Source: an uncultured Bacteroidales bacterium | GTDB lineage: Bacteria; Bacteroidota; Bacteroidia; Bacteroidales; UBA932 | Reading direction: 5' to 3' | Length of the DNA: 64,000 bases | Assembly: GCA_944326365.1 (NCBI GenBank) | Contig: CALVDR010000002.1 | Span: 99,715-163,714 of the forward strand | Shown: positions 8,669 through 11,296 of the stretch, piece after piece | Numbering within the stretch: position 1 is the first letter of the stretch | How the letters are laid out: each line of letters begins with the position of its first letter | Notes under the pieces: model-generated | Told to the model about the DNA's origin: nothing | Database searches by the model: none | The model's input: the letters and a program-made list of their open reading frames with translations, nothing else | Program-made: the position numbers and the translations under genes

Positions 8669-8974
8669 ATGAGCCAAAAGATAAGAATTAAACTCAAATC
8701 ATTCGATCACATGCTGGTAGACAAGTCTGCCAAGAAGATCGTTGATACAGTGGCTTCTACAGGAGCTCGTGTGAATGGTCCCATTCCACTTCCTACTGAC
8801 AAGAAGATCTTCACTGTGAACCGCTCGACTTTCGTCAACAAGAAGTCGCGCGAACAGTTCGAGCTCAACTCATTCTGCCGTCTGCTTGATATCTATGATT
8901 CAACTCAGAAGACAGTGGATGCCCTGATGAAGCTGGAGCTTCCAAGCGGTGTTGAGGTCGAGATCAAAGTCTGA
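8669..8974 (+). CDS. rpsJ: 30S ribosomal protein S10
   Basis: 101 residues, complete, with the [15 protein letters not shown] terminus and the conserved GPIPLPT segment. S10 is part of the small-subunit head and also serves transcription antitermination as NusE. It follows fusA by 32 bp. Unusually, the expected rplC, rplD and the other S10-operon genes do not follow; a promoter and a small-RNA/tRNA unit begin within three bases of its stop, and the rest of the operon resumes at rplP 38.7 kb away. Confidence 0.99.
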
Positions 8975-8976
8975 TG

Positions 8977-9006
8977 TTGCAGTTTAAAAAATAATTGCTA
9001 TATTTG
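8977..9006 (+). promoter_or_regulatory. Promoter of the structured-RNA/tRNA unit
   Basis: TTG at 8977-8979 and TATATTTG at 8999-9006, with 19 bases between, match the Bacteroidota vegetative promoter and begin just after the rpsJ stop. A strong 13-bp hairpin with one G-T pair (arms 9006-9018 and 9024-9036) covers the expected transcription start; it has no U run, so it is a poor terminator for rpsJ but could protect a 5' end. Confidence 0.75.
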
Positions 9007-9061
9007 CATTCCTGTCCGCGCGACGGGCAGGAATGCTTGAAAAAGTTCTTTATAATACGAA

Positions 9062-9170
9062 GTTTGTTTTAGGTCAGAACAAGGAAGACAAGTCCGGAAA
9101 GAGGAAGTTTACTTGTGTAAATGACCGACAGACGGTACGCAGTCTGACGCAGTTATTACCTAAAAGAAAC
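9062..9170 (+). ncRNA. Structured RNA element, copy A
   Basis: An outer stem pairs 9062-9074 with 9158-9170 (twelve pairs, one G-G mismatch). An inner hairpin pairs 9107-9112 with 9117-9122 around a ttgt loop. Conserved single-stranded blocks are acaaggaagacaag (9079-9092) and cgcagtctgacgcagt (9138-9153). Copy B 122 bp downstream keeps the blocks and the loop while changing both stems with compensation, which is strong evidence for a functional RNA fold. The element lies between a promoter and a tRNA gene. I do not recognise the family. Confidence 0.72.
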
Positions 9171-9183
9171 GAGTTAATTTGAA

Positions 9184-9291
9184 GTTTAGTTTTTGTGAGG
9201 ACAAGGAAGACAAGCGACGAGAGACGCAGCAACCTTGTGGTTGTGAGGAACGAGGATGCGCAGTCTGACGCAGTAATCGCAAAAAATGAAC
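9184..9291 (+). ncRNA. Structured RNA element, copy B
   Basis: The outer stem pairs 9184-9198 with 9277-9291 (fourteen of fifteen positions pair, two of them wobble, with one G-A mismatch). The inner hairpin pairs 9229-9234 with 9239-9244 around the same ttgt loop as copy A. Four of the six inner pairs differ from copy A and all four are compensated. The conserved blocks lie at 9201-9214 and 9259-9274. It ends eight bases before the tRNA, and no second promoter is visible in between, so it is probably part of the tRNA precursor. Confidence 0.72.
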
Positions 9292-9298
9292 GAAAAGA

Positions 9299-9373
9299 GG
9301 TCCCATAGCTCAGTTGGTTAGTAGCACCTGACTCATAATCAGGGGGTCACAGGTTCAAGCCCTGTTGGGACCA
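9299..9373 (+). tRNA. tRNA with CAU anticodon, probably elongator tRNA-Met
   Basis: The cloverleaf is clear. The acceptor arm GGTCCCA pairs with TGGGACC. The D arm starts GCTCAGTTGG, the anticodon stem CCTGA/TCAGG encloses the loop CTCATAA, and the T arm is ACAGG-TTCAAGC-CCTGT. The discriminator base is A and CCA is not encoded. The D stem has one weak C-T position. A CAU anticodon also fits tRNA-Ile2 with lysidine or an initiator; the absence of the initiator GGG/CCC anticodon stem rules out the initiator, and elongator Met is my preference. Confidence 0.9.
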
Positions 9374-9403
9374 CGGAAACGGCCACAGACGGCCTTTATG
9401 ATG

Positions 9404-9435
9404 AAGCACTTACATGAAAATGCAGGTGCTTTTTT
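9404..9435 (+). terminator. Terminator of the RNA/tRNA unit
   Basis: The stem arms 9404-9415 and 9420-9431 pair with one wobble and one mismatch around a gaaa loop and are followed by a T run to 9435. It ends the transcription unit that starts at 8977 and separates it from the AT-rich island. Between 9436 and 9606 I see only AT-rich sequence and no gene. Confidence 0.85.
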
Positions 9436-9606: not shown

Positions 9607-9614
9607 TATCTTTG
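9607..9614 (+). promoter_or_regulatory. -7 box of the AbiE promoter
   Basis: TATCTTTG at 9607-9614 matches the Bacteroidota -7 consensus, about 33 bp ahead of the chosen AbiEi start. The -33 element is weak. AbiEi-type antitoxins usually repress their own promoter; a possible operator lies in the AT-rich flanks but cannot be defined here. Confidence 0.6.
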
Positions 9615-9647
9615 CATTTGAAAAATCGTCAAAATTTCAAAGGTGAT

Positions 9648-10256
9648 ATGACAAATGAATATTCTATAGATAGTACTACTCTCAAGCAACGTATAGAAAC
9701 GATGCCTGAAGATTGTATCCTGTTTCGTTCAGACTTCCCTGAATATCACACTGAATTTGTTGGTAGTATTTTGACTGAATTGACAAATGAAGGTACACTT
9801 GTTAAAATTGCACATGGAATATATACCAAGCCAAGAAAAAGTCGATTCGGTATTGTACTTCCTTCGGTCGATAAAGTTGTACAGGCAATTGCAGTCCGAG
9901 ATAACGCAAAAGTGTTACCATCAGGCATGACTGCATTGAATTTATTAGGGCTATCGACTCAAGTACCGATGAATTACACATTCCTGACTACTGGAAGTGA
10001 AAGAACAATAATTATATCAAATAGGAAAGTAGTATTAAAACGAGGTGTCCCCAAAAACTTCTGTTATAGAACTCGTCTTATTTCACTACTTGTTCAAGCG
10101 CTTAAGGCTCTGAAAAAGGAGAATATAGGAGAAGGTGAATTGAATATAATTCGACAATTGGTATCTAAGGAAACAGATAGGGAGACTTTAATCAAAGATG
10201 TAGATATGATGCCTGCATGGATGAAACGAATTATAAAACCAATGCTAACCGCATAA
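9648..10256 (+). CDS. AbiEi-type antitoxin (DUF6088-like) of a type IV toxin-antitoxin pair
   Basis: 202 residues from the ATG at 9648. A TTG 36 bases earlier keeps the frame open but lies inside the -7 box, so I reject it as start. An N-terminal winged-helix region (~20-75, with VKIAHGIYTKPRKS) is followed by the C-terminal domain of AbiEi antitoxins (PSGMTALNLLGL, then TTGSERTI). The family acts as antitoxin and autorepressor to AbiEii nucleotidyltransferases, which in other species give phage abortive infection. The toxin gene follows 14 bp later. The region is clearly AT-rich compared with its flanks, a sign of transfer. Confidence 0.88.
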   Translation: MTNEYSIDSTTLKQRIETMPEDCILFRSDFPEYHTEFVGSILTELTNEGTLVKIAHGIYTKPRKSRFGIVLPSVDKVVQAIAVRDNAKVLPSGMTALNLLGLSTQVPMNYTFLTTGSERTIIISNRKVVLKRGVPKNFCYRTRLISLLVQALKALKKENIGEGELNIIRQLVSKETDRETLIKDVDMMPAWMKRIIKPMLTA

Positions 10257-10270
10257 AAGGAACTTAAATT

Positions 10271-11296
10271 ATGGGAAAACTGTGGTTAAACAATGAGATA
10301 GTGGACCGTTTAGCAATGTTACAGCAGACGGAGGTTGGACATCCTGGCGTTAATCAGGTAGCTATAGAAAAGGACTGGTGGGTAACAGTTACGCTGAAGG
10401 TATTATTCCAAACAGATTGCCGTGATTCTTTGATATTCAAAGGCGGAACATCGTTGTCAAAAGGTTTTAATATCATAGAGCGTTTCTCTGAAGACATTGA
10501 TTTGGCAATCAATCATTCGTTCTTTGGTATTGATGGAACAAGTAAAAGTCAGCGGGAGAAATTACGCAAAAAGGCACGAGCATATATTCACGAGACCCTT
10601 TCTTCACAATTAGATGCCCGTTTGAAAGAAATGGGAGTTTCTGGTTACAGTATAGAGAATGTATCTCAAGAACAAGATAAAAATGGAGAATGGAGACTAA
10701 TAGATTCGGACAAAGATCCTAGTGTAATTCTATTGCACTACCCGTCAATTCTTGAAGATTCAATAAATTATATTCCTCCTCGTGTAAAGATAGAAATCAG
10801 TTGCCTTTCAATGGATGAGCCAACAGAGATACGACACATAAGTTCTTTGATAGGCGATAGTTTTGATGGCGAAGATGCTGATGCTGAAAGTTTTGTCAGG
10901 ACTGTAGTTCCGACTCGTACATTCCTTGAGAAGCTGTTTCTTTTGGCGGAAGAATTCCAAAAAGAAAAACCACGGAGCGTACGAATGTCACGACATCTGT
11001 ATGATTTGGAAAAGTTGATGGATACAGAATATGGAGAAGAAGCTTTGTCGAATCGAAAACTTTATGATGCCATTGTTCAACATCGTAAAACTTATAATGC
11101 TTTGAAGTATGTAAACTATGATTTACATGCCCCATCAACCATCAACTTTATGATACCGGAATCGGCTATAGAAGCATGGCGAGATGATTATGCCGATATG
11201 AGGCGTTTCTTTATTTATGGCAAATCCTTAGAGTTTGATGCGCTTATGCAGAAAATGGCAGAGCTGCATGAAAGAGTTAGAGCTATAAAAATTTAG
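10271..11296 (+). CDS. AbiEii/AbiGii-type nucleotidyltransferase toxin
   Basis: 341 residues. The nucleotidyltransferase signature is intact: FKGGTSLSKG at 56-65 and SEDIDLAI at 73-80 with the two acidic residues Asp75 and Asp77. AbiEii enzymes transfer nucleotides, in studied cases to tRNA acceptor ends, and halt growth when the antitoxin is lost. The start at 10271 has an aaaggaa stretch ~10 bases upstream. Paired with the antitoxin at 9648-10256, it looks complete and probably active. It stands beside a tRNA gene, a frequent entry point for such islands. Confidence 0.92.
   Translation: MGKLWLNNEIVDRLAMLQQTEVGHPGVNQVAIEKDWWVTVTLKVLFQTDCRDSLIFKGGTSLSKGFNIIERFSEDIDLAINHSFFGIDGTSKSQREKLRKKARAYIHETLSSQLDARLKEMGVSGYSIENVSQEQDKNGEWRLIDSDKDPSVILLHYPSILEDSINYIPPRVKIEISCLSMDEPTEIRHISSLIGDSFDGEDADAESFVRTVVPTRTFLEKLFLLAEEFQKEKPRSVRMSRHLYDLEKLMDTEYGEEALSNRKLYDAIVQHRKTYNALKYVNYDLHAPSTINFMIPESAIEAWRDDYADMRRFFIYGKSLEFDALMQKMAELHERVRAIKI

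Follow-up and report, generated by a model that had tools for sequence, protein, structure and literature searches.

ERIC sequences are best known as targets for PCR fingerprinting. These elements (also termed IRU or RU-1), first described in 1990–91, occur as dispersed intergenic copies in enterobacteria (PMC2229807). Section 10 of the same source states that copies in Yersinia are co-transcribed with adjacent genes and alter the stability of the transcripts, the effect depending on their orientation. Transcription, with possible processing by RNases, is also reported for bacterial MITEs (PMC10969869, PMC2229807). Two kinds of these elements can be likened by their description to the repeat analysed here: (i) Correia/NEMIS and other bacterial MITEs, which are likewise small non-coding hairpin insertions beside genes, and (ii) BrickBuilt, a MITE of Porphyromonas (a genus of the same order), which is reported to be strictly intergenic (PMC10969869). 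Neither the word tRNA nor the word rRNA appears in the body of this 2024 MITE review (PMC10969869). Among the matches listed in the literature searches, no title referred to ERIC-like repeats in Bacteroidota or ahead of tRNAs. A study of human microbiomes reports 3161 candidate structured RNAs, 250 of them palindromic (PMC8040213), which may include the present element.

The window (the whole stretch of 64,000 nt that was analysed) originates from an uncultured Bacteroidales bacterium belonging to the genus of Candidatus Cryptobacteroides. The locus examined (positions 8977–9435; all features on the + strand) follows a gene read as rpsJ, which ends at position 8974. It begins with a promoter-like pair, TTG ... 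TATATTTG (8977–9006), composed of TTG at 8977–8979 and a TAnnTTTG box at 8999–9006, which resembles the Bacteroidota promoter consensus. The upstream promoter of the original prediction is backed by this box, but not by a sigma-70 scan of the window, which found no promoter and does not cover boxes of this type. A 13-bp hairpin (9006–9036; −23.7 kcal/mol) is predicted close to the expected transcript start, and is followed by the sequence GTTCTTT (9045–9051), which resembles boxA of rRNA antitermination. By reading, CCCG...CGGG inverted repeats similar to this hairpin were also noted 3′ of promoter boxes at a contig end and in two 16S leaders. GTTCTTT recurs, in the window and in four other loci, within leaders and spacers of tRNA and rRNA genes, with or without the elements described below.

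Two tandem copies of the element, at 9059–9174 and 9181–9295, separate these signals from the gene for tRNA-Met (CAU; 9299–9374), the second copy ending 3 nt before the tRNA. This arrangement is as originally predicted, whereas the copy length of about 108 nt was corrected by the covariance model to 116 and 115 nt. The terminator proposed behind the tRNA corresponds to a terminator-like predicted stem with one mismatch (9403–9432) running into six T residues (up to 9435), but the terminator scan, at its settings, reported nothing for this segment. Both copies and tRNA-Met very likely form one predicted transcription unit. Further 3′ of the tRNA (9612–11296), two ORFs encode an AbiE-type toxin-antitoxin pair, i.e. 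a protein with DUF6088 and a weak match to AbiEi-type antitoxins, and a protein with an AbiEii toxin domain.

The two blocks shared by the copies and the UUGU loop are present in the letters, as are the compensatory changes in four pairs of the inner hairpin (GUUUAC/GUAAAU versus GCAACC/GGUUGU) and the predicted outer stems (9062–9074/9158–9170 and 9184–9198/9277–9291). The proposed selection for the fold was supported by covariation across copies and by folding energy compared with shuffled sequences. None of 200 shuffles folded as well as copy 1 (z −4.30) and two of 200 as well as copy 2 (z −3.22); folded by itself, copy 2 favours a different inner hairpin and tip, the common one being derived from the consensus. 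In an alignment of 25 copies, fitted to the model and hence favoured in its pairing figures, 26 of the 35 pairs showed changes on both sides and 92.2% of the cells were paired, values reached in none of 500 shuffles. Pairing in this alignment fell to 32–41% once the partners were slid.

The fold was also found to be strand-specific. G-U pairs outnumbered A-C combinations in three sets of copies (62/15, 84/7 and 125/27), with none of 1000 shuffles equally skewed, and continued to do so when pairs that are mostly G-U were removed (39/15, 56/7 and 53/27). The size of this skew is uncertain, because the sets partly overlap (the first and third share their origin) and the fitting model permits G-U on the chosen strand, which may have inflated it. 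The skew says that the maintained fold is that of the strand transcribed towards the tRNA, and is compatible with either RNA or single-stranded DNA.

The window copies are members of a dispersed repeat family. A first search of the same genome with one of the shared blocks identified three further tandem copies directly 5′ of tRNA-Ala (TGC). A covariance model built from these and the two window copies gave 36 genomic matches at E up to 10. A 25-copy model, which included two copies from elsewhere in the genus, yielded 40 matches at E up to 0.001. The element is located directly 5′ of nine of at least 44 tRNA genes (43 Rfam matches and one tRNA-Pro outside those), with copies preceding tRNA-Met, Ala, Trp, Tyr, Gly, Val, Glu, Pro and Phe. 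Further copies lie 5′ of 16S and of start codons in genes whose products have TrkA, UvrB and POR domains. The tandem pair that had been singled out is real, but it belongs to a dispersed family and is not a lone pair. A special tie to tRNA-Met or rpsJ was rejected, since other tRNAs have elements too.

The placement of the element was tabulated for the genus from 131 of the 172 listed matches. The remaining 41 comprised copies truncated at a contig end, DNA already counted through an overlapping locus, incomplete upstream copies, and 18 loci without a tRNA in which the copies were divergent or otherwise placed. A tRNA followed 67 of the 114 distinct copies, which is not an unbiased share because of the matches left out, including those 18 loci. 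The gap to the tRNA was 0–9 nt and measured 3 nt in 37 cases and 4 nt in 16 (53 at 3 or 4 nt). Another copy followed in 26 cases, a 16S gene at 45–139 nt in five, and other features in 16 (the start of a protein gene, a 23S gene, the end of the contig or, once, a tRNA-Tyr truncated by the contig end). The tRNAs used most were Val (19 distinct copies), Ala (12), Met (12) and Pro (8), and elements were also detected between tRNAs within an operon. Copies before 23S were placed at 6 nt and about 210 nt, and others ended 2–10 nt before the ATG of genes with the Pfam assignments UvrB, TrkA, POR, exonuclease III-like, HlyD, ATP synthase D and LptF/LptG. Another repeat, of the CGTCGAACTGACGTTA type, was observed just 5′ of the element preceding uvrB in locus L054, where it adjoins the element, and at about 580–690 of locus L008.

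Genome contigs were also scanned with a sequence pattern derived from the 5′ arm and the core, which contains no tRNA letters but was drawn from similar copies; at least eight of 27 genus loci recur among its matches. It detected 34 stretches, all assigned to Bacteroidales (once to Bacteroidia) and, where a genus was given, to Candidatus Cryptobacteroides. In all 31 stretches with downstream DNA, the last element was followed by a tRNA.

A covariance-model search of Bacteroidota genomes, as suggested with the original prediction, revealed many relatives in the genus, the order and the phylum. Of the 61 genomes of the genus that were searched (completeness at least 85%; own genome included), 14 contained matches and six of these had 20 or more; the filters were strict, so weak copies may have been missed. 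At E up to 1e-4, matches were present in 62 of 247 genomes and 52 of 165 genera of the order, amounting to at least 331, since scoring was limited to 15 candidates in each genome. In the phylum, at E up to 1e-5, they were present in 30 of 345 genomes, 27 of which belong to one further family (mostly 40–52 bits).

Outside the genus, no tRNA was within reach of the elements in any of the 28 loci read from the order, nor in three loci of the further family; one element of the order is separated by 10 nt from the 3′ terminus of a tmRNA gene encoded on the opposite strand. Divergent copies are located between protein genes. By a simple ORF rule, the 3′ end of the element was no more than 12 nt from the stop of an oppositely oriented ORF in 15 of 34 such copies (six of them from the own genome), and within the genus no more than 6 nt from it in nine of 14. 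Three genomes of the genus have a copy that is 5–6 nt away from an oppositely oriented small SRP RNA gene, at the 3′ end of this gene. No shared neighbour gene for the order-wide relatives was apparent, by reading, among the neighbours of 27 loci. Carriage by plasmids or phages was likewise rejected, as blastn of window positions 9040–9300 against plasmid and phage collections gave no match, and the exact core pattern was absent from the viral contigs searched. In one locus (L177, 1460–1650), a direct duplication of about 33 bp flanks a divergent element near a gene end.

Comparison with Rfam, also suggested with the original prediction, matched only the tRNA in this region of the window at gathering score. 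Riboswitch or T-box identity was rejected, there being no Rfam match. Across the loci no family was assigned to the elements at this score, with the single exception of an overlap in another genome of the genus. In this locus (L283), a 64-bit element match (303–419) overlaps the 5′ end of a match to RNase P RNA (372–706), the first helix of which aligns poorly; an insertion or fusion is possible. When matches to the window up to E 5 were considered, a weak PrrF match (8977–9070; 16.9 bits, gathering 90) touched the start of copy 1, and sX9 was absent. The absence of a named family, as originally predicted, therefore holds for Rfam at gathering score, but the element does resemble the ERIC of enterobacteria, which itself had no match in the Rfam library used.

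This likeness was recognized from sub-threshold matches to sX9 (RF02228, a Xanthomonas sRNA) together with blastn searches, which, with two elements of another Bacteroidota family as queries, revealed similar stretches in Proteobacteria. The sX9 matches (L323, 1504–1564, and L322, 1551–1591; 34.1 and 29.3 bits, gathering 44) are on the opposite strand of the element core and cover the tip and one arm. Three element profiles scored 12.3, 17.7 and 10.4 bits on an ERIC sequence (the 127-bp sequence printed in PMC2759123, reverse-complemented), compared with maxima of 6.9, 4.6 and 6.3 bits in 500 shuffles. Furthermore, a covariance model (116 nt) built from Cryptobacteroides copies only matched an E. 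coli ERIC (601–727 of L327) at 606–721 with 28.0 bits, the next-best match in that stretch having 11.6 bits; a single ERIC copy was searched and the E-values are rough. The same model gave 36.6 bits for a Comamonas element and 31.0 bits for a Proteus element (background in those stretches no higher than 13.9 bits), and only 17.1 bits for a second E. coli stretch found by blastn.

ERIC and the element have in common the core CAAGG ... AGGAG-[stem]-loop-[stem]-TGA ... (C)AACGCAG and a similar order of short stems and internal loops, and both are predicted to form a long RNA hairpin. They differ in several respects. ERIC is bounded by TATACCC...GGGTATA terminal inverted repeats, whereas the element forms tandem arrays, has other outer arms and belongs to a different phylum. 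Its placement 3–4 nt 5′ of tRNAs and before rRNAs may be a further difference. The model, which leaves out the U-rich and A-rich flanks, gives the element a length of 115–116 nt, next to about 127 bp for ERIC. The window copies are classified as ERIC-like and not as ERIC, because both lack the TATACCC ends. Judged by these sequence features, the family is an ERIC-like dispersed repeat, an element type already described but here in a lineage new for it and with strikingly regular placement.

Comparison of related genomes provided information on how the copies arose. Spacers between tRNA-Tyr and tRNA-Gly without an element are 3–40 nt long in 20 loci and 90 nt in one, compared with about 130–190 nt when an element is present; one 48-nt spacer carries a remnant. 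The 5′ junction of ntpD has a few nt in element-free genomes, while one genome (G042) has there an inverted divergent copy and two tRNA-type copies. The xthA junction measures 3–8 nt in two genomes, whereas in other genomes it is occupied by elements or their remnants. The interval between tRNA-Thr and tRNA-Tyr has from 0 to 3 copies, depending on the genome, and one tRNA junction has 0, 1 or 3 copies across sister species. Since their presence is patchy and the element-free junctions are tight, the copies look like insertions rather than a conserved regulator of tRNA-Met alone.

Like MITEs, the elements are small, non-coding and dispersed in many intergenic copies. At tRNA-linked copies no target-site duplication was seen (the element-free comparison sites are too diverged to reveal one), nor was a clear terminal repeat, the arms being imperfect; no parent element or mobilising enzyme was found for this type. 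An order-wide type with the ends CTAATTAGTGTC shares these ends with a 1.65-kb insertion sequence containing a 443-aa ORF with a DDE transposase domain. Because of these matching ends, this type at least is, by its sequence, MITE-like. The insertion sequence (L251, about 281–1936; PF01609 DDE) has ends common to many small repeats with the ERIC-like core in other Bacteroidales. At E up to 1e-5, PF01797 (Y1) was detected in one of seven element-bearing (27.6 bits) and four of 11 element-free genomes of the genus, and elsewhere in the order in 13 of 14 element-bearing and 13 of 19 element-free genomes. REP/RAYT-like mobilisation by Y1 was rejected for the genus as unsupported, no Y1 (IS200/RAYT) transposase being found in six of the seven element-bearing genomes. 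Truncation at the 5′ end, as in retrotransposition, was also rejected, as partial copies lack either end with no clear bias.

These observations probably mean that the hairpins 5′ of tRNA-Met belong to an ERIC-like family of tolerated MITE-like insertions, transcribed as a precursor leader and then cut off by RNase P. The copies would have spread as non-autonomous, MITE-like DNA insertions. A transcript starting at the predicted promoter would contain a 5′ leader with the elements, followed by the tRNA, and RNase P would remove the element like any other leader; insertions would be tolerated at tRNA 5′ ends for this reason, making these ends a safe harbour. The base of the stem leaves about 7 nucleotides, mostly A, before the tRNA. 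In 57 element-preceded tRNAs, A occupies leader position −2 in 89% and −4 in 91%, compared with 58% and 49% in 159 other leaders, which were chosen by a simple rule and still include a few with elements. RnpA is reported to bind leader nucleotides N(−4) to N(−7) (PMC4919922). The A-rich 3′ tail of the element may supply RNase P with an ordinary leader, unpaired and about 7 nt long, so that the insertion would be tolerated; the same tail, perhaps also a fair translation start region, could explain the copies before start codons. The hairpin may in addition have some effect on the stability or processing of the precursor RNA, as reported for ERIC in mRNAs.

The near-constant gap of 3–4 nt is tighter than tolerated random insertion predicts, and counts against it. 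This distance would suit a domesticated leader module, kept by selection for an action in cis on stable-RNA operons (e.g. processing, antitermination or insulation), as would the repeated use of the element before tRNA, 16S and 23S and between the tRNAs of an operon, its strand-specific fold and the preference for Val, Ala, Met and Pro tRNAs. We nevertheless regard such domestication as unlikely, given that no more than 14 of the 61 genus genomes gave matches, that relatives carry the same Tyr-Gly tRNAs lacking the element, that copies also precede unrelated protein genes and that the copy number at tRNA-Thr/tRNA-Tyr is variable. A similarly doubtful but more far-reaching proposal is that ERIC-type hairpins are an ancient cross-phylum RNA module. 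In the Cryptobacteroides branch this module would have become a standard 5′ part of stable-RNA precursors, at a fixed distance from tRNAs and a looser one from rRNAs, controlling precursor synthesis or maturation.

It is more improbable still that the element is a DNA palindrome without an RNA role, the pairing of which is kept by template switching or by a transposase that binds DNA hairpins. Relatives in the order do have nearly perfect, variable outer inverted repeats, and one type carries the ends of the DDE insertion sequence. However, the excess of G-U over A-C on one strand, the G-U pair kept at the tip (in 45 of 45, 28 of 29 and 23 of 24 copies) and the conservation of non-complementary internal loops among copies argue against such a palindrome, as do the Y1 results in the genus (no transposase found in six element-bearing genomes and a weak match in the seventh). 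Finally, the tandem, strongly folded units just 5′ of expected RNase P sites could be genes for small RNAs of roughly 115 nt that are transcribed from the promoters of tRNAs and released by RNase P, but copies also stand before start codons and this reading appears very improbable.

A covariance model of the family could close a gap in Rfam, where sX9 may correspond to a single arm of such a repeat, read from the opposite strand; some sX9 calls may be ERIC-like repeats, and sX9 is listed among the top 20 most prevalent bacterial sRNAs (PMC9029176). The occurrence of ERIC-like elements in Bacteroidota, and their docking 5′ of tRNAs with a nearly constant gap, are surprising and unreported in the literature searched. 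With their common core, loops, strand bias and docking at 3–4 nt, the Bacteroidota relatives would form a natural series for testing an RNA role of such repeats, one tRNA junction being available with 0, 1 or 3 copies in sister species.
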